Assembly (NCBI GenBank): GCA_015179045.1
Contig: WHUZ01000001.1
Span: forward strand, 744,001-808,000
Direction: 5' to 3'
DNA: 64,000 bases
From: Kalaharituber pfeilii
Lineage: Eukaryota; Ascomycota; Pezizomycetes; Pezizales; Pezizaceae
A model generated the notes under the pieces. It was not told the DNA's origin. It ran no database searches and was given only the letters and a program-made list of their open reading frames with translations. Shown here piece after piece: positions 5,530 through 23,200 of the stretch. How positions within the stretch are numbered: position 1 is the first letter of the stretch; each line of letters starts with the position of its first letter. A program made the translations under genes and the position numbers.

Positions 5530-5827
5530 GCTTGTGAGAGTGCAAGATTCAGTGAGTTACTTTGATGACTTGATAAGGATTTATTTCCTAAAGACAAAAT
5601 TGACCACAGAGATATACAAAGTCTTTGAGAGATTCAAGGTATCAGTGGAAAATAAGTGTACTAATATAGACCACTGTATCAAAGAGATTCAGATGTGATA
5701 ATGGCTGTGGCAAATATGACAATGCATAGTTCAAGAGCATACTACAATAGAGCGGAATCACATTTGAGCCATCTGTTTCTTATACTCAACACCAGAATAG
5801 TGTAAGTGAGAGAAAGAATAGTATAAG
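5530..5827 (+). mobile_element. Copia integrase fragment, left arm of inverted repeat
   Basis: Reading around frameshifts gives IYFLKTKLTTEIYKVFERFK, a DNG...YDN motif and YTQHQNSVSERKN, the middle of a Copia integrase catalytic core. The reading resumes after the inserted miniature element at 6713-6810 (RNRTI, EMVVSMLSDSGLGKEF). The same sequence occurs in reverse complement at 6930-7290. Stops make it a pseudogene. Confidence 0.75.
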
Positions 5828-6064
5828 TGTTACGGAGGTGGTAAACGCAGAAAGTTACCGTCCGCCAGGTCAAAAAGACACTTGACTAGCGATACTCGCT
5901 AGTCCTCTGCGTAGCTCATATAGTACTCATTATGCAACTGCGGCGCCTTTCCGGCTGTCGCATGTCGCTCACGTCGCATATGCGCATTTCGTATGCGCTT
6001 GCATTTTTCGCTTTTCACGCGCTCCACCGGCCGCCCACACTACGGTCGCGGTGAACCCGTAACA
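5828..6064 (-). repeat. 3' LTR of miniature element
   Basis: Minus-strand 3' LTR, 237 bp, TG...CA ends. On the minus strand it contains a TATATG box and, 28 nt downstream, TATCGCTAGTCAAG. It also holds a perfect hairpin (GACTAGCGA, 3-nt loop, TCGCTAGTC). It appears identical to the copy at 6471-6707. Confidence 0.85.
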
Positions 6065-6078
6065 GTACCCCCCCTCTT
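6065..6078 (-). other. Polypurine tract of miniature element
   Basis: On the minus strand AAGAGGGGGGGTAC directly precedes the 3' LTR. The Gypsy element has AAAAAGGGGAGTAC in the same place (9220-9233), which suggests the same reverse-transcription machinery. Confidence 0.7.
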
Positions 6079-6456
6079 AGGGGGACTTCTCCGGGTTGCT
6101 ACTATATGAGTCTGCCCCCACCCTGGCCGTCGTGGATTATCCCATGCGCTGTGCTACATGACCCTTCCGACCAGGATGTCAGCCAGGGATTCGATACGTC
6201 ACTTTGTCCTTGCTGCTGCCTCAGACGCATTGCGCAAGCACCACCCATCACTTGGCATGCCGGGATTACACAGCGTCGCCTAATATCAATATTTTGCCGT
6301 CTTACATGGCCTTCCATATTGCTCTTGGCTCTGGCTCTGGCTCGTGGCTCTCGCTCTTTGGCTCTTGGCTCAGGTAAGGTCTTACTTTCTGCGGCTTTAA
6401 TACTTAATACTCAGGGAATTGGCGAGATAAGTTAAGCATCGAACCGGTGACCGGTT

Positions 6457-6470
6457 TATCGCTAGTCAAC
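6457..6470 (-). other. Predicted self-primer binding site
   Basis: Minus strand immediately after the 5' LTR: GTTGACTAGCGATA. Thirteen of these bases (TTGACTAGCGATA) are the reverse complement of TATCGCTAGTCAA in the LTR, placed where transcription should begin, 28 nt after a TATATG box. No TGG start of a tRNA-type primer site is present. Confidence 0.6.
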
Positions 6471-6707
6471 TGTTACGGAGGTGGTAAACGCAGAAAGTTA
6501 CCGTCCGCCAGGTCAAAAAGACACTTGACTAGCGATACTCGCTAGTCCTCTGCGTAGCTCATATAGTACTCATTATGCAACTGCGGCGCCTTTCCGGCTG
6601 TCGCATGTCGCTCACGTCGCATATGCGCATTTCGTATGCGCTTGCATTTTTCGCTTTTCACGCGCTCCACCGGCCGCCCACACTACGGTCGCGGTGAACC
6701 CGTAACA
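6471..6707 (-). repeat. 5' LTR of miniature element
   Basis: Minus-strand 5' LTR, 237 bp, the same sequence by eye as 5828-6064. It is followed on the right by target duplication ATAAG at 6708-6712. Confidence 0.85.
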
Positions 6708-6825
6708 ATAAGGAACAGAACAATCTAAGAGATGGTAGTAAGTATGCTGAGTGACTCAGGACTTGGTAAGGAATTCTAGGTAGACAGCTATGTTTCGTTT
6801 ACTCAATACTATAAGAAACAGAACA

Positions 6826-6918
6826 ATCCAGAGAATAGAACAATCTAGAGAACAGAACAATCTAGAGAACAGAACAATCCAGAGAACAGAACAATCCAGA
6901 GAATAGAACAATTTCTAG
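6826..6918. repeat. Tandem repeat, about 17-bp unit, at the centre of an inverted repeat
   Basis: Six or seven tandem copies of a unit resembling AGAACAGAACAATCCAG (variants with TCTAG and ATAG). The unit derives from the RNRTIQ codons of the Copia integrase region next to it. The block separates the two arms of the Copia inverted repeat (6726-6800 against 6934-7005). Confidence 0.8.
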
Positions 6919-6929
6919 AACGGTTTGAG

Positions 6930-7290
6930 TATACGAAACATAGCTGTCTACCTAGAATTCCTTACCAAGTTCTGAGTTACTCAGCATACTTACTACCATC
7001 TCTTGGAATATTCTATTTCTTATACTATTCTTTCTCTCACTTATACTATTCTGGCATTGAGTATAAGAAACAGATAACTTAAATGTAATTCTGCTCTATT
7101 ATAGTATGCTCTTGAACTATGTATTGTTATATTCCCTACAGCCATTATTACATCTGAATCTCTCTGATATAGTAGTCTATATTAGTATACTCATTCTCCA
7201 CTGATGCCTTGAATCTCTCAAAGACTTTGTATATCTCTGTAGTCAACTTTGTCTTTAGGAAATAAATCGATGTCATGTGCACTGGAAAGG
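6930..7290 (-). mobile_element. Copia integrase fragment, right arm of inverted repeat
   Basis: Reverse complement of the left arm: minus-strand SDSGLGKEF-like region, then YTQ..NSVSERKN and the EIYKVFERFK region up to 7268. It lacks the miniature element, so it keeps the empty target site (AGTATAAGAAATAG). At about 7268 it joins unrelated Copia 3' sequence. Confidence 0.75.
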
Positions 7291-7807: not shown

Positions 7808-8682
7808 ACTCTCTCACACTAGAAAGTATGAACATTATCTTAGAAAATTCAACGATTTCAGAAAATATGCTATGTAGGCAAACTTCAGTGCTTAGTACCT
7901 TGAATAGTTGTACCATTAGTATTCATCTGTATAATTGTTTTCTTTCTCAATACCCACTTGCAGTCAATAAACTTCTTATCCAATGGGCGAGATACAAGAA
8001 CCTATGTCTTATTTGCTAGTAATGCTTGATAATTCTTTATTACAAGCCTTTATCTATTGCTCTTTATTAGAACTATGCATTGCTTGCTCAAACGTAATAG
8101 GTTCAACTCCTTCAGAGTCCTCTTGAGAGGTACTCACAACATTCAATACTCGATTTAGTGTATTATCCTCAAATTCAGATCGCAGAGGTTGCTCAGTTTT
8201 CCAACACTACGTCTCATCAAAAACAATATTCGCTGCCGTAACTGTTCTCTAGCTCTTAGGATCCCATAACTTCCATATTTTGTTTGTTTGCTCAGCATAC
8301 CCCAACATTATATATTGCTTACTTTTGGGTTCTAGCTTCGTTCTTTTAATTTCTGGAATATGAACGTATGCAATGCGATCTTCTGAGATGTGCTAAAGAA
8401 GGTTTTTTATTAGTTCATGCCTCAAAAGGTATACAGAATCTCAACACCACTTTTGAGGATAATCGATTTCTCAAGTAAATGGCTGTGAGTACTGCTTCAG
8501 ACCAAAATACAGATAACAAACCACTATCACTCAACATGCTTCAAACCATCTCAGTTATTATTCTAATTATTCGCTCGGCCACTCCATTTTGATGTTGAGT
8601 ATGTGGTGCACACGGTTCAAATAAGATGCCATATTCTTGAAGAAGATTTTTGAACATGTTATTGTTGTATTCACTGGTATCT
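7808..8682 (-). mobile_element. Copia pol remnant: end of integrase and linker
   Basis: Minus strand: SEYNNNMFKNLLQEYG and APHTQHQNGVAERI (integrase third acidic residue region), SMLSDSGLLSVFWSEAV, then IKRTKLEPKSKQYIMLGY and WDPKS. Multiple stops. Most of the reverse transcriptase and RNase H are missing before the 3' LTR. At 8683 it is interrupted by the Gypsy LTR; the preceding integrase residues (ending RSDN) are found at 18068, so these are probably two halves of one element. Confidence 0.75.
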
Positions 8683-9219
8683 GTTACGGGGTACGGGTAC
8701 TGTAGCCCGTATACTAGATAAATCAATTAAATAGTAAATAAGCGTTATATTCGTTAGGGTCGAGTTCCGGGTTCTTGCCCCTTCAACTCCCGTGGGCCAG
8801 GCCTCTATTTATACAAAAAAGTGTTTTTTCGAAGCAGGTCAACTGAGCCTACTTGAAAGGTTCCTAGGGATCAAGCCAGACCTTGAAAATGCCAAGTAGA
8901 AAAGCCTTATCAACGACCGACCCTATTAAGAAACAAATGAGAAATCCGAAACACCATAATACATGTTGATTTCCGAAAATACATTCATAATTCCAGCCAC
9001 TATGAAAAAGATTTGACAAGTAAAAGATAAGGAAGGTTGTTGCACACACCCGTGGCTGCCTTACGCAACAGGAGCTGCCGACTATAGTCAGTAACTAAGG
9101 TTGTTAATCTTAGTAGTTACCCCAGCCGGCGATGATCCATCGCCCCTAGCCCACTTGTTGGTGTTAGCTGATAACACCATTAAGATGTTGTTATGGCATG
9201 ACAGGTTACTACCATAACA
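8683..9219 (-). repeat. Ty3/Gypsy 3' LTR
   Basis: 537-bp segment that on the minus strand starts TGTTATGG and ends CCGTAACA. It contains a TATAAATA box (minus strand, near 8808-8815). A purine tract AAAAAGGGGAGTAC precedes it on the minus strand. The matching 5' LTR is absent, so LTR divergence cannot be used for dating. Confidence 0.8.
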
Positions 9220-12616: not shown

Positions 12617-15219
12617 TTTTTTTTTTTTTTTTTTTATATATCACATGACCCCGCGTGCAGCTGTTCGCCAAGGCAGGGCCCCTGGGTCTTCGACCCTCAA
12701 AGCCCGGAGGCAGGCTTTTCTACCTACTTCCTCCCCCGCCATTTCTACAAACGAAATCCTCGACCCCTCCCCGCCCCACCTCCGCGAGGCAATAAAAATA
12801 GCTACAACTTTCTTCCCCCGCCACCTTCGAACAAACGAAAAATCGCCCCCTCCCCTACACCTTCAGCGATCCGAAGAACTCTCCTAGCACGTTCACCACC
12901 TCCCCGTTCTCCTGCTCTACCCTCCATTTCTTATCATCGATATCCTCCCACCTTCCCCATCCTTCCAGGTACTCCACCTCCTCACACCTGAACGCCAGGT
13001 GATCCGCTGTTTGTTTTTCACCACACCCACATACACTCCCCTCCATCGCTTTCCCAATCTTCACTTCCCACTCCTTCCCCATCCCCTTTCCCGTTCTCAA
13101 CCTCGTGAACGCCGTTGCCGCTCCCCTTCTCCACTCCATCACCACGCCCCCCCATACCCCCTTTCTTTCCTCTCCGCCGCGCGCAGTCGTTTCCACTTCT
13201 GCCGCAGCCCCCCTTCTGTCACCACCGACCTTCCTACTCTGTCCGCCGCCTTCTTTGCTTCGACGTCTGCCGCCTCATTCCCGGCGATGCCGATGTGTGC
13301 TTTCACCCATATCAACTTGACGTCCCCCCCTTTCCTCCTCCTTTCTGCTATTTCGTTCACCACCTTCTTCAGGTCCCCGGTTCGTGCTTTCCCCAGTCTC
13401 CCCGCCTTCTTCACCGCCGCGATTGCTGCCTGTGAATCAGTTAGGATGACCACGTTTGCCGGTGCCGGTACTGCCTTTTCTATCCCCTTTCTCATCCCCT
13501 TTATCTCCCCGTCCCACACCGTCGCCCCCGTCCCCATCTCTTCTCCACCCCCGCCATCCCACTTCCAAAAACCCCCTCCTACTCTCCCTTTCTCGTTCAT
13601 ACTCCCGTCTGTGTATACCACTCCCGCCCCCTGTGTCGCCCAAAAGACCGAGGACTCCCACTCCTCCGCCCCCCCTCCTTTGCGACCTTCTCTGTTAACT
13701 TCTTCAACCTCTACCTTGGCACACCTCCCTCCCCATGACACCTCTACCTTGGCACACCTCCCTCCCCATGACACCTCGGCCACTCCCTCCGGCATGACGA
13801 AGCTAACTGTGCTCTGCACCCTCCCTGCCACCGACTCGAAACCGTCCTTCTTCTGCGTCGCCCATCCCACGCTCCAATCCTTCCAGTCTCTGCCCCGCTC
13901 CTCCACATCTCCCTCCCCTCTGAAATCTGCGGTCCATATGTCTCCGCAGCCCTCCGGGTCCCCCATACTTCTTGCCACCAGCCTCGCCTGCGCAGCGTCT
14001 AACGCTGTCTCTGCACTCTCCACTCCGGCAATCCAGTTGACTTTCTGAATTGCTGCCCCGTGGACAGCGCCCGTGGCTTTCTTCAGTACCTGGTACTGAA
14101 TCTTCTCCATCTCCCTTCTCCAGTCTTTCTGTCCCCTCCATCCTATCTCCGACCCCCACATCATCACCGCTCTGATCATCCCCGTGTATAGCTGTCGCCA
14201 GCTCCGTGGGCCCATCCCCCACTGTCCCGCGCCCACCCCCATGGCTCCCGTGAGCTTTCTCGCCTTCTCTATCCTCGCCTTCCAATGGAAGTCGAAGTCT
14301 AGAGTCGAGTCGAAAATTACTCCTAGCCATTTCACTCTCTCCACCTCCTTTCTTCTTCTCTTCCCCTTGCCGAAGACTATATCTTCGTGTTTCGTTTTCT
14401 CCAGCGGTACTCCCCATTTTTCTGCCACTCTCCCCGTTATACCGCCCAACTTCACTCTCAGTCTCTCGTGATCCACCTCCCCCTCCCAGTCCCATGCCGT
14501 TACATTGATGTCGTCTACGTACGACGGGACTTCGCACTCTACCCCCGGGCACTCCCTCCTCAGCGTCTCCTCCAAATCCTCTAACATCGGCGCCAGCCAT
14601 ATCAGGAAAATGACTGGCGACAGTGGCGACCCCTGAGGTACCCCCACGTTCGCTTTCCCTTCCCCCCTGACCACTCCGTCCCACTCTACCGTGAATTTTC
14701 TTTCCTTAAAAAATCCCTTCAACCATCCCGCCCACCTCCCCGCCCCCCTGTCACCCCTCACCCTCTTTAACACCTCTCCCTTCACATTGTTGAAGCCCCC
14801 CCTCACATCGTCGAGGCTCCACACTGACCCCCCCTTTCTTGCCAGGCACCTTTGCGTCTTGGTGACTGCCCTCATCATCGCCTCTGCAGCATTCCGTCCC
14901 TTCCTGCCGCCAAATTGATGCCGGTGGAAAAGTTGATCTGCTTTCTGTAGCTCGTTTGCTACCACCTTCTCTCCCAGCTTCGCCACGCAGTTGATCAAAT
15001 TTATTGGCCTCCAACTCTTCACCTGGGATTTGTCTTTCCCAGGTTTCGGAATCATCACCACTTTGCTCAGCTGCCATTCTCCCGGCGTCCTCCCCCTCGC
15101 CATCTCCTCCGCCATCTGTGTCATTAGCTCCCTTCCTAATGGCGTCTTCATTACCAGCTTCAAGAACTTGTATGAGACTCCATCCGGTCCCGGCGCCGAC
15201 ACGTTGCTCGTCCCCCTAA
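12617..15219 (-). mobile_element. 5'-truncated LINE (Tad1/I-like, with RNase H)
   Basis: Minus-strand non-LTR retrotransposon bounded by a 14-bp target duplication and ending in a poly-A tail (plus-strand T run to about 12635). The ORF encodes RT (APGPDGVSY, PKPGKD, GVPQGSPLSPVIF, SYVDDINVTAW) and RNase H (VVYTDGSM, LTDSQAA, WVKAHIGIAGNEAAD, with catalytic acidic residues present). A C-terminal Cys/His motif (CGCGEKQTADHLAFRC) lies in another frame at 12855-13196. ORF1 and the endonuclease are lost, as in typical 5'-truncated insertions. A frameshift lies at a G7 run (C7 on the plus strand, 13146-13153) between RNase H and the Cys motif. Confidence 0.9.
13713..13778. repeat. 33-bp tandem duplication inside the LINE
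   Basis: Two adjacent 33-bp copies starting ACCTTGGCACACC. They add 11 residues (the protein reads VSWGGRCAKVE twice) just before the RNase H domain without breaking the frame. Confidence 0.85.
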
Positions 15220-15233
15220 ATGTACCATAAGTT
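15220..15233. repeat. LINE target-site duplication, right copy
   Basis: ATGTACCATAAGTT, the partner of 12603-12616, at the truncated 5' end of the LINE. Confidence 0.85.
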
Positions 15234-17533
15234 AATCCTTCACTATATGCATCAATAGACCGTAAACAATGATAATAAAAACGATTAATAGATGCAGAAG
15301 AAACAGAATGTAATGCTAGAGGAAGAGGATCTCGTAAACCATCAAATGAATAAGAACAGTTTTCTCGTAAATAATACTTAACAGAACACCAATAACGCTC
15401 AATAAAATTAAGTTCACAATGAAACTTAGGATAAAAAATTACCTGTTGACCAGCAGCTTCTAATTCTTCTTCTAGCCGGCCTTTTTGCTGTATAAAATCA
15501 GGTTGCTGAGAGAGTAAAGTTCGTGCGCAACAGCCTCCGGCAAGAGTTGGCTTACAGCCAGGACGGTCATGAGAGGTTGGACATTTCAGAAGAAAAGCAA
15601 ACCTATCTGACCGATGGCTTTTCCAAAGCCCTCTTTCTTTCAGCACTTGACGAATACCTTTTGGCTTTCCCCGTAGTAATATATTAGGATAGTTCATAAG
15701 AAATACCAGAGCTTAAGATATTTACTTTACATAAATAAATCCTTCACGCATCAAAGGTTGTTCTCCACCAGGATTGAGATTCATTCGTGCTGCTACAAGT
15801 GCATCTGGAGCAAATGAACAGTGATTTGAAGCATTATCAAATGCAAACAAGGCTTGACAATTAGGAAATGCATACCGGAAGATAGGTAGTGCTGTTCGAA
15901 TAGTATGTTCAACCATTTTGTCACCTGTCCAATAATTCTCCTTTCCATATTCCAATAATTCAAGTGCTTCACGAACTGGCTTGCCAGTTTCCAATATTGG
16001 CCACATAGGATTTCGTAAAAGCTCATCATCTGAAATATGATCAGGAATACGTAGAATTCCACCTGGAGTAAGAAAACCAGAGACCATTATGCCTTTACCC
16101 TTTCCCTTAGGTCGTAATGGTTGTTTTCCATCTTTCATCCAGATCCTACGCTTGCCATCATTAGCATTGAATGTAGACTCATCATGCGTAATTAAAACTA
16201 ATGGTTTTTCTTCATTGAGAACATTAGCTGGTGGCATTTCAAATGATCCATCCTCTTTAAAAATCACAAAGCGGTGTTGAGCTTTCTTCCATTGGGGTAA
16301 AAAAATGGAATTTCGATATGCAATCACATCTTCCCGCTCATGTCCATCGATATAAACTGACTTTGTGACAGTATTATATTGAAATCCCATTCTTTTTAGC
16401 CATCGCCGTGCAGTTCTAGCTCTTATACGAAGTGTACAGGGAGCTGTTGAAGTATTTTCCTCTGTATTGCTGTCGTGGTTTTGTAATGTAGCCGCTATAA
16501 CAGAAACCGCACGCTGTGAATTTAAGTATTCACCAACTGCTTTCGCTAGCCCATAAGCTGTAATCTCTATTTTAACATTAATCATTTATTTTTCTAACTG
16601 CGCATTGATGTATTCTATACTACTTACTTTCACCAGTACCACTTAGCCATTCCCGTACTGCTAATTGAACCCCCTCATCATTAAACCATGACTTGACTTT
16701 ACTAAAGCAGCCCCGGTGCCCTTCTGATATAGTTCGATCCTACGGAGTATATATATTAGTATAAGAAATTCAGATCCTCATATATGCTTTACCTTTTTCC
16801 ATTGCAGTTCCCATGTTATAACCTTTCTTGCAAAATATTTCCCTCTATTATAGCACCGTGCAACAGCAAAAGCCATCTCTTCTCGTGTCTCACCAGGCTT
16901 TCGTAACCGACATGTATAAAGAAGGGAAAGCACTGCCCTATGCCGCATTAAATTCTGCCCTTCAAGCTTTATCTTCTTTGACTGCAGCTTCTTCTCAAGA
17001 TCCTTGATAGCTTGTGTATCTGAATCTAATCCAGTCTCTGCTTCCCTAGTAGTAAAAGCCTCAGGTGTAATAGACTCGGACTGTGCCTTACTGAAGTAGT
17101 ATGTAATACTACGAGATCCATTAGCTGCTGCTGCCAATTCTGCTGCTGTTTGTCGTTTTCTTCGTTGCTGCCTTTCGCTATATTTAGGACCCCGCTGGTA
17201 CCGGATATTTCTGGATGATTCTCCTCTAGATGACATCAAGAGTTCAAATACATCTTGATTGAACTCATCATTCTCTGGCTCATCCTCAGTGAATTCACAA
17301 TCTTCTTCCGAACTAGAGTCAAACTCTTCCCAATGAACTGCTGTTGGCACCTCCGGCTCTCCTGGTCTCCATACATCCTCCTCACTTTCATTATCCAAAT
17401 GTGCTATTAGTTCCGCTTCCAGCTGTGCTTCAGCTAGCCGTGCTCGTTTTGCCTGTCGAACTCTCTCCAGATGCAGCGCCCGCTTGCTTTTCCGTCCCAT
17501 TTTGTGAATCTGTATTAACATTAAGTGAGCCAT
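15220..17533 (-). pseudogene. DDE transposase (IS630/Tc1-like, DDE_3 type), pseudogene
   Basis: N-terminal part MGRKSKRALHLERV with an acidic stretch and RRKRQTAAELAAAANGSRSITYYF. Probable introns near 16790-16740 and 16660-16570 restore the frame into ITAYGLAKAVGEYL. The catalytic core follows: THDESTFNAND (first Asp), FAFDNASNH (second Asp) and FYPKFHCELNFIERYW (Glu), spacing as in IS630/Tc1 DDE_3 enzymes. Between REGFIYVK and MNYPNILLRGKPKG two in-frame TAA codons interrupt the core; CAA-to-TAA and CCT-to-CTT changes would explain most of this. The original stop was ACA-TAG, recoverable from the left target duplication (12601-12616). The LINE inserted inside it. Confidence 0.85.
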
Positions 17534-17880
17534 AGACTAATTAACTCAAGCATAGGAGCGTATTTACCAATTTAATTCTTTGATTCAAGCGACAGGGTGA
17601 CTGAACAGGCCGATATGTGCGACCGATGCAACAGGTATCAAGTTGCAAGTATATGGGTCAACCAGCGGTGGACAGTGGATTGGTGCTGTAGGGCGGTAGG
17701 AAGAAAATCGCATGAAAGAGCGGGGCATCAGTGCATGTAACGACTACATAACTAGTGCTTATAGTGCTTAGTCATCATCGAAGCAAATGTCCGCCCTCCT
17801 CCGCATACAGATGTCCCCACCATACCTTTTGGTGCAACGGTTTGCGAAACGGTCGGTTGCAACCCGTAACACTCGGTTAG

Positions 17881-17977: not shown

Positions 17978-18067
17978 GAGCTACGCAGAGGACTAGCGAG
18001 TATCGCTAGTCAAGTGTCTTTTTGGCCTGGCGGACGGTAACTCTCTGCGTTTACTACCTCCGTAACA
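17978..18067 (+). repeat. Partial LTR of the miniature element family
   Basis: About 90 bases matching the miniature LTR in opposite orientation to the complete copy, ending CCGTAACA at 18067. It differs at a few positions (GAGAGTTACC, GGCCAAAAAG), so it is an older copy. It sits exactly at a Copia integrase codon (RSDN), so it was probably an independent insertion later truncated by deletion. Confidence 0.75.
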
Positions 18068-20252: not shown

Positions 20253-23200
20253 ATGAAAGTCGGTTTTAAGGCATGTATATACTGCCTGTCAATCTAATCT
20301 TCCTACCGCTGACTGAGTGGTTGAGACAGTTCTCGAATCTGCTCGGGACAGTGTACTGCCGGGGGAATCTAGTGTTCACACCCGATGGGACGTGTCTACT
20401 TTCGCCCGTGGGAAACCGGATAACGTGCTTTGATCTAGTAAAGTGTGTCTACCTCATCCTTAGGTCTATTCTTTATACTGATGATCCGTTATCATAGCAA
20501 TAAGTCTTTCACCTTTACCTTCGAACACCGAAAGAACATCGCCCGCATAGCGCTATCGCCGCAAGCTACGCTGCTTCTGTCAGTTGATGAAGGTCACTAT
20601 GCTTCGATGTTCCAATTTTTAGTGCGCGTGCTAAACGATAGAATTTCCAGACGGACGAGCCATTCTTACGAATTTCATCCGTCGAACAACCCTCCACCAC
20701 TTTAACTTCAAGTCGAAAATTCAGGATATACAGTTCTCTCCAGATGGGAAGTACTTCGCTGTCGCAGCTGGGCGGCATGTGGAGGTTTGGAAGACGCCGC
20801 AAGTGAGCGATGAGAGAGAGTTTGCACCATTTGTGCGGCATCGAGTGTATACGGGACATTTTGACGATGTCAATTCTATCACCTGGTCTGGTGATTCGAG
20901 GTTTTTCCTGACAGGGTCCAAGGATTTGACGGCAAAGGTTTTCTCGCTCAATCCCGTTGAAGGGTTTGTTCCTACGTCTCTTGCTGCGCACAAGGGTAGT
21001 GTGATTGGTACATATTTCTCTCACGACCAAGAGACGGTATGATGCTCTGTATTGGCATGAGGCCGACATTAGCTAAACAAGATTAGATATGTACTGTGAG
21101 CAAGGACGGTATTTGCTTTGAGTGGAAATACAAGCGGCGGCCCCGACGAGCGGATGAATCTGATGATGATATGGACGACAGTGAGCATGAACAAGAGGAA
21201 GATCCGACAAAAATGCAATGGCGAATAGAGAGCCGACATTCTTTCAAGCTTGACCAGCGTACTACCATTAGGTGTTGTACATTTCATCCGGAATCAGGCT
21301 TGCTTGTAGCAGGCTTTTCCTCTGGCACATTTGGATTATACGAAATGCCTGATTTCAATATGATACATAAGCTATCGATATCACAAGCCGGTATAGACTT
21401 TGTGACAATCAACAAAACTGGAGAATGGCTGGCATTTGGTGCCTCGAAGCTGGGCCAGTTACTGGTATGGGAATGGCAGTCAGAATCATATATCCTCAAG
21501 CAGCAGGGTCACTACGATGCAATGAACTCAATAGTATATTCTCCAGATGGGCAACGTATTATTACGACTGCAGATGATGGGAAAATCAAAGTCTGGGAGG
21601 CGTCTTCAGGGTTTTGTATTGTTACTTTTACGGAGCATAGCTCGGGGGTCACGGCTTGTGAATTTGCTAAAAGGGGAAATGTCTTGTTCACAGCATCGTT
21701 AGATGGGTCTGTGAGAGCCTGGGATTTGATAAGATACCGAAACTTTCGAACTTTTACAGCCCCTTCCAGGTTATCGTTTTCATCATTGGCGGTTGATCCA
21801 TCAGGGGAGGTTATTTGCGCAGGTTCATTAGAGTCATTCGATATCCATCTGTGGTCTGTGCAAACTGGACAGCTACTGGACCGATTGCAAGGCCATGAAG
21901 CACCTATATCATCCCTATGCTTTGCACCTGATGGCTCAACGCTGGCAAGCGGAAGTTGGGATAAATCAGTGCGGATATGGACATTATTTGGGCGCACTCA
22001 GACGAGCGAGCAACTGCTTCAAACCTCTGATGTGCTTTCTGTTGCATTCCGCCCCGACTCCAAGGAAGTCGCAGTAGCTTCCCTGGACGGCCAGCTTAGC
22101 TTCTGGAACGTTGACCGCTCTGAACAAACTAGCATAATAGACGGCAGACGAGATATCTCCGGGGGTCGAAAATCTACAGACCGTCGTACCGCAGCCAACA
22201 ATGAGGCTACAAAACACTTCACCACAATCACTTACAGCGCTGACGGTACATGTGTCCTTGCAGCAGGTAACTCCAAGTACATCTGTCTGTATGACGTCGC
22301 CTCCGGTTGCCTAATCCGCAAGTTCACCGTCTCAAAGAACTTATCCATCGATGGCACACAGGAGATGCTGAATAGTAAGAATATGACGGAGGCGGGGCCC
22401 CTCGACTTGATTGATACCCAAGGCGAAGCGTCGGACCTGGAGGACCGAATGGATCATACGCTGCCTGGGGCTACAAGAGGTGATTTTTCGGCTCGAAAGG
22501 TCAGACCGGAAATTAGGGTCACGAGTCTGGCATTCTCACCGACGGGTGGGGCATTCACAGCTGCGTCGACGGAGGGGTTGTTGATATATTCGCTGAATGA
22601 TAATGTGGTTTTTGATCCGTTTGATCTGGATATTGATATCACCCCCGCTTCAACATTAGCTGTGCTAAGAGAAGGGCCAAATCCAGACTACCTCAAAGCT
22701 CTTGTGATGTCCCTGCGCCTTAACGAGCGCTACATCATTCACCAAGTTTACGAGGCCATTCCTCAAGTTGATATTCGCCTCGTCGTCAAGGATCTTCCGG
22801 TTGTGTATATACCGAGACTACTTGCTTTTGTCGCTGAAATGAGCGAGACGACACCACATTTGGAGTTTTGCTTGTTGTGGATCGAGGCACTGGTCACGGT
22901 GCATGGAAGGTACCTTCGTGAGAACGCGCAGCAGTTCCAGGCAGAGATGAGGATGGTGCAGAAGGTATTGGGAAGAATTCAAAGTGACTTAACAAAGTTG
23001 TATGTAAATCCATTGCCACCCTCCACTGCTCCACCCACCTCCGTAGTTTTTTTATAGTGGAAGTTCTAACTAGCAGAGGTGCACTGCAGAGCCGATCAAA
23101 ACATCTATACACTGGACTACCTTCTCTCACAACAGGCCGCCGCGCACAGCAAGAAAGCGGCAAGCGCCAAAGTTCCCTTACGAGTCAAGGGGCTAGAGGA

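Follow-up and report, generated by a model that had tools for sequence, protein, structure and literature searches.

A TRIM-like element of Kalaharituber pfeilii with a primer-binding site complementary to its own LTR

A miniature LTR element and its local sequence

The window, the whole stretch of 64,000 nucleotides of Kalaharituber pfeilii DNA analysed here, contained a non-autonomous LTR element on the reverse strand (Table 1). Terminal-repeat retrotransposons in miniature (TRIMs) are shorter than 1 kb, have LTRs of 100–250 bp and are without coding capacity. The element agreed with this description in size (880 bp), LTR length (237 bp) and non-coding interior (406 bp), with no stop-to-stop frame of at least 150 aa overlapping it, and it had a polypurine tract (PPT) beside the 3' LTR and a target-site duplication, as TRIMs do. 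A PBS complementary to a tRNA, which is a further TRIM criterion, was not found with the incomplete tRNA set described below, so that 'TRIM-like' refers here to the anatomy of the element, its primer being of another kind. Since the identical LTRs, the ATAAG duplication and the polypurine tract could all be read in the window, the miniature element of the original prediction is real.

Table 1. Features of the TRIM-like element, in window coordinates
Feature	Position	Strand	Remarks
Whole non-autonomous LTR element, TRIM-like, 880 bp	5828..6707	-	direct repeats, target-site duplication, PBS, PPT
5' LTR, 237 bp, TGTTACGG...CCGTAACA	6471..6707	-	
3' LTR, 237 bp, identical to the 5' LTR throughout	5828..6064	-	
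TATATG, TATA-like box	6560..6565	-	
LTR self-primer segment TATCGCTAGTCAA, predicted RNA 5' end	6525..6537	-	
9-bp hairpin GACTAGCGA-GTA-TCGCTAGTC, overlaps the self-primer	6527..6547	-	upstream arm precedes the predicted RNA start
Primer-binding site (PBS) TTGACTAGCGATA	6457..6469	-	
1-nt spacer G between 5' LTR and PBS	6470	-	
AACCGG-TCA-CCGGTT hairpin, abuts the PBS downstream	6442..6456	-	
Polypurine tract (PPT) AAGAGGGGGGG, then TAC, then 3' LTR	6068..6078	-	same place in TRIM copies
Target-site duplication ATAAG, left	5823..5827		
Target-site duplication ATAAG, right	6708..6712		

The element is located at the edge of one arm of an inverted repeat (5568-5827 / 7019-7278; 260 nt, 89% complementary) that flanks it on both sides. 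There were also inner inverted-repeat arms (6708-6806/6925-7023), and 17-nt tandem repeats at about 6800-6935. A shortened LTR belonging to the element's family was present at 17978-18067 (+), oppositely oriented and beginning just past the TATA box.

The 13 bases situated one base past the 5' LTR had been predicted to be the reverse complement of a segment inside the LTR. Re-reading of the letters in the window bore this out: the PBS was exactly complementary to the LTR segment over 13 nt, with the complementary bases at 6457-6469 and position 6470 being the spacer G. The LTR segment (6537-6525) was located 67 nt ahead of the 5' LTR end and, also as predicted, began 28 nt past the first T of the TATATG box. 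When the LTR was shuffled 20,000 times (first-order Markov), no run of 13 arose at offsets 0–4 after it. A PBS complementary to an LTR segment that is placed as the predicted RNA 5' end corresponds to the Tf1/sushi criterion for self-priming.

The same LTR segment forms the 9-bp hairpin that had been proposed for it (6547-6527), with an energy of -12.4 kcal/mol versus -18.8 kcal/mol for the pairing of primer and PBS. The repeats could consequently be read as a promoter palindrome or as an RNA hairpin with another role, of which the PBS match would be a by-product. Such a reading accommodates the perfect hairpin, but the PBS match extends over 13 nt rather than 9 bp and is found exactly at the PBS. 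Together with the comparison of families below, this makes a separate role of the repeats very improbable.

Copies in the genome and candidate tRNA primers

In the 78-Mb assembly, at least 40 LTRs of the family had at least 98% identity (40 scored of 876 first-look candidates), and several were solo LTRs with 5-bp duplications. A junction pattern consisting of the LTR end and the PBS, with up to 3 mismatches, was found at 57 sites. The counts below refer to 50 of these; the sites left out were C9:23976, which is a TRIM copy seen in L026, and those on C214, C269, C309, C312, C321 and C332. The first 30 junctions comprised 24 full TRIM copies, 5 copies linked to pol sequence and one LTR with leader that was followed by other DNA (L036, at C124:591204). 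Three of the full copies (L034, L040 and L046) had a common upstream flank at ≥99% identity, so the 24 copies represent at most 22 insertions. The DNA after the L036 leader was unrelated and contained an open frame in which a likeness to ubiquitin-interacting motifs was seen by eye; host sequence may have been captured there.

Seven of the 50 junctions were pol-linked, having the same PBS without an LTR upstream. Copies with the TRIM PBS and leader after decayed gypsy pol were L050, L053, L054, L056, L060, L075, L082 and L160; seven pol-linked copies matched L050 upstream at 86–94%. This group was considered as a sign of a common tRNA and set aside, the upstream DNA being decayed gypsy pol and not an LTR; for the same reason the seven junctions were excluded from the pairing count. 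In L050, a GGCACCGACCGCATACA-type minisatellite followed the leader. Integrase-core-like letters resumed beyond it (domains by eye), and the PBS/leader block therefore seems to lie inside the integrase.

Thirty-five of the 50 junctions had the PBS complement 67 nt ahead of the LTR end. For the 43 junctions left after exclusion of the pol-linked sites, the 120 nt preceding the LTR were searched up to its end for the best placement were counted in 21, 12 in 14, 11 in 5 and 7–8 in 3. Thus, at least 11 of the 13 pairs were kept in 40/43 junctions and pairing was imperfect in 22/43; with G–U pairs allowed, all 13 pairs formed in 30/43. The three junctions without a good LTR–PBS match were L078, which seems one base short (by eye), L079, which looks rearranged there, and L081, which keeps only the U5 end. 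L081 is a mosaic in which integrase-like coding sequence (by eye) is fused to the last U5 bases and the PBS. Only the first ~50 leader bases of L078, L079, L080 and L084 were in common with the TRIM; these four probably represent a different short element whose LTR is related, and further on L078 and L079 resembled the pol-linked copies.

In the relative L084, one T–A pair was replaced by C–G on both sides and another pair was mismatched, and in L073, L074 and L076 the two sides had changed independently. When the window copy was compared with 23 other TRIM copies, 719 of 877 substitutions were C>T or G>A, which is RIP-like, and covariation within the family was for this reason rejected as a decisive test. 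Because the changes in old copies are mostly RIP-like decay after insertion, some of it unmatched, such covariation is weak evidence either way. The low substitution rate of the PBS in the 23 copies is biased and provides no evidence, since the search pattern included the PBS.

Taken from the predicted RNA start, the leader of 118 nt folded in silico at -37.9 kcal/mol into the 13-bp helix and an adjoining AACCGG-UCA-CCGGUU hairpin (z -3.3; 2 of 200 shuffles as good). Five of seven other junction leaders that were folded (L036, L070, L072, L080 and L084) kept all or most of the primer–PBS helix in the prediction. A shortened helix was kept by L078, and L086, although fully complementary, was predicted to fold otherwise. 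The Tf1 leader forms a 'pretzel', in which sequence next to the PBS pairs with the LTR in two additional duplexes (PMC10085805), whereas the TRIM-like element has the AACCGG hairpin after its PBS. The central duplex was part of the minimum-energy fold, and a possible third duplex competed with the local hairpin.

TRIMs are usually described as primed by tRNA (PMC6934838), and a tRNA, through its 3' end or as an internal half-tRNA, might likewise prime here, leaving the LTR match incidental. No TGG occurred in the first 30 nt after the LTR end, so that no CCA end can pair at the PBS. A search with RF00005 gave 63 matches, of which 50 were read; all 50 were called tRNA by ARAGORN and represented 12 isotypes, a set without Leu, Phe, Tyr, Trp, Asp, Glu, His and Pro. 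Among these 50 genes the match to the PBS was at chance level, with 4 mismatches in the best ungapped 13-mer; 500 shuffled PBSs gave 2–5 mismatches and likewise most often 4. The exact 14-mer GTTGACTAGCGATA was present at 35 sites in the assembly. LTR-end-like letters preceded it at 33 (two of these, on C312 and C332, unread), and the remaining two were the TRIM copy L023 and the pol-linked copy L160 (C173), the latter without a tRNA; none of the sites read was a tRNA gene. A tRNA with a better match than the LTR, which would speak against the original prediction, was hence found neither in this incomplete set of 50 genes nor at the 14-mer sites read. The eight missing isotypes, the 13 unread matches and the presence of the same PBS without an LTR in the pol-linked copies leave some room for a tRNA primer, but given the absent TGG, the chance-level 13-mer and the 14-mer sites it is exceedingly improbable.

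Chromodomain retrotransposons of the same genome

The element was compared with seven autonomous families whose 5' LTR and PBS could be read (f1, f3, f4, f5, f6, f10 and f11). Left out were f2, the chromovirus of the window and other PF24626-bearing groups (e.g. L096, L099 and L100). All seven families contained Pfam Chromo, and their sampled copies had open frames of 571–1290 aa; a purine-rich tract was found before the 3' LTR in f1, f3, f4, f5, f6 and f11. For f2, no LTR pair was detected in the stretches fetched, nor was a same-strand pair at element distance among 40 scored of 83 candidates. The chromovirus of the window is a chromodomain gypsy element with PF24626 (8682-10452, reverse strand) and a 538-bp LTR (8682-9219), for which the best other match was partial (88%). 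With a query 5 bases short, no close full-length second copy was found among 40 scored of 164 candidates, and the element therefore gives no PBS. At 13139-17536 (reverse strand), reverse transcriptase and RNase H domains occurred in one open frame whose arrangement is LINE-like; an adjoining frame was weakly DDE_3 transposase-like, below the curated cut-off. A WD40 protein frame, read from 21087-23054, was 100% identical over 97% of its length to a protein of K. pfeilii.

A complement of 8–11 nt to the LTR was found at the PBS position in all seven families, with different letters in each. The longest complement starting 0–3 nt after the LTR was 11 nt in f1, 10 nt in f5, 9 nt in f3, f4 and f6, and 8 nt in f10 and f11 (the f10 value is based on only 335 nt of its LTR). 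The corresponding P values from 4,000 shuffles each were 0.0015 (f1), 0.0032 (f5), 0.0063 (f3), 0.0020 (f4), 0.0022 (f6), 0.0053 (f10) and 0.0092 (f11). In 3' flanks used as controls, the longest runs were 5 (f5), 4 (f3), 6 (f6), 6 (f4), <4 (f11), 5 (f10) and 5 (TRIM); one of the eight control flanks, that of f1, also had a run of 10 nt (P 0.010). The spacer between LTR and PBS was 1 nt in f5 and 2 nt in f1, f3, f4, f6, f10 and f11. The primers lay 37–69 nt past a TATA-like sequence, the boxes of f1 and f6 being loose matches, compared with 28 nt in the TRIM. A hairpin of the 9-bp type was not apparent by eye in the upstream LTR contexts of the seven families; that each has its LTR–PBS match in the corresponding position, in letters of its own and without such an apparent hairpin, argues against a by-product of a hairpin with another role.

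Because f3 and f6 are homologous, as are f10 and f11, the seven families are not seven independent cases. The homologous pairs allowed a comparison of primer and PBS. The f3 and f6 primers (ACGCAACCT vs ACGTAACAA) had three differences, all of which were matched in the PBSs (AGGTTGCGT vs TTGTTACGT), and the single difference between the f10 and f11 primers was also matched in the PBS. Two of the matched f3/f6 changes, like the single f10/f11 change, are transversions, which RIP does not explain. The f4 primer (ACTGGTCAA) and that of the TRIM (GCTAGTCAA) had 7 of 9 bases the same, and both differences were matched in the PBS, a comparison that presupposes no homology between f4 and the TRIM. 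Independent drift of the two segments, which would count against self-priming, was looked for, and between families (f3/f6 and f10/f11) the segments instead changed together. Covariation, which had been proposed as a check across copies and species, was accordingly seen between families of this genome, whereas among copies the RIP-like decay and the unmatched changes left it weak either way.

The families resembled the TRIM in the LTR self-primer, the spacer of 1–2 nt and the arrangement of the PBS. They differed in having chromodomains and open frames and in their primer letters, f4 being the closest. The family nearest to the TRIM is f5 by the LTR ends and the 1-nt spacer and f4 by the primer letters, and no choice was made between them. 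A locus at C358:46122 was rejected as the autonomous partner, the PBS there belonging to a TRIM copy; a nearby open reading frame had a 3' LTR beginning like that of f6.

Predicted self-priming and its relation to known systems

Judged from sequence, Tf1-type self-priming is very probably the best explanation for this TRIM-like element, whose copying would depend on proteins of chromodomain (Tf1/sushi-like) retrotransposons. The matched changes between families, the likeness of all seven families and the lack of a tRNA match in the set searched support this part of the original prediction. By analogy, the RNA of the element would start at or very near the self-primer segment in the LTR (TATCGC). 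The first 13 nt of this RNA would double back onto the PBS, which follows the 5' LTR after one base, and form a perfect duplex with it; the RNase H of a helper would cut after nucleotide 13 and the helper reverse transcriptase would extend the cut 3' end into U5. The proteins would be supplied in trans by chromodomain LTR retrotransposons of the same genome, and these full-size relatives also appear to self-prime.

The primer could itself act in trans, if the PBS paired with the 3' copy of R or with the LTR segment in the RNA of a different copy. Many near-identical LTRs would offer the same 13 nt, and the primer segment is expected at the RNA 3' end as well; proximity and the predicted structure nevertheless favour fold-back within one RNA, and we consider priming in trans improbable. 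Tf1 primes from the 5' end of its own RNA, in cis, which agrees with the pairing of its first 11 nt described below. If the predicted start is right, the 5' RNA copy of the segment cannot form the 9-bp hairpin and the 3' copy can, because the upstream arm precedes the start. It is conceivable, albeit unlikely, that the hairpin distinguishes the RNA ends, with only the 3' LTR segment locked and the 5' copy alone free to prime. If true, the hairpin could stop the 3' copy of the segment from competing as a primer.

Both self-priming and TRIMs are already known. In Tf1, the first 11 nt of the RNA are complementary to the PBS and RNase H cuts between nucleotides 11 and 12 (PMC7175516); the complement in the TRIM is 13 nt. 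Tf1/sushi elements have been described as commonly self-priming (PMC10085805), and self-priming has been proposed for Tj1 (PMC4600332) and for the Tcn1 and TAR lineages of plants (PMC6317226), while neither tRNA priming nor self-priming was found in one Tcn1-like element (PMC2864245). As in the Tf1/sushi chromoviruses Tf1/Tf2 of Schizosaccharomyces pombe and Tj1 of S. japonicus, the PBS after the LTR complements an LTR segment at the RNA 5' end, this end being predicted here. Unlike Tf1, Tf2 and Tj1, the TRIM is without any gag-pol.

With the TRIMs of plants, animals and fungi, the element shares a length below 1 kb, a short non-coding interior, a PBS, a PPT, many copies and solo LTRs, the LTRs here being 237 bp. 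TRIMs have been described with a tRNA-complementary PBS, in contrast to the self-primer without a detected tRNA match here; the same study, on bivalve TRIMs, lists self-priming fungal elements and gives no clear mechanism for its own TRIMs (PMC6934838). Gypsy-type TRIMs have been reported from the fungus Cochliobolus heterostrophus, with no PBS mentioned (PMC4112212), and self-priming TRIMs may exist unnoticed there. No report of a self-priming TRIM was found in titles or the start of abstracts in open PMC text, a search that lies outside most subscription journals.

The reading proposed here would extend Tf1-type self-priming to a TRIM-like element, which would mean that primer and PBS can travel together on an element that is not autonomous. 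Because the element encodes both, the primer/PBS pair can diverge in step. The seven families of this genome, with seven different primer/PBS pairs, constitute a natural data set on what reverse transcriptase needs in helix length, spacer and position.
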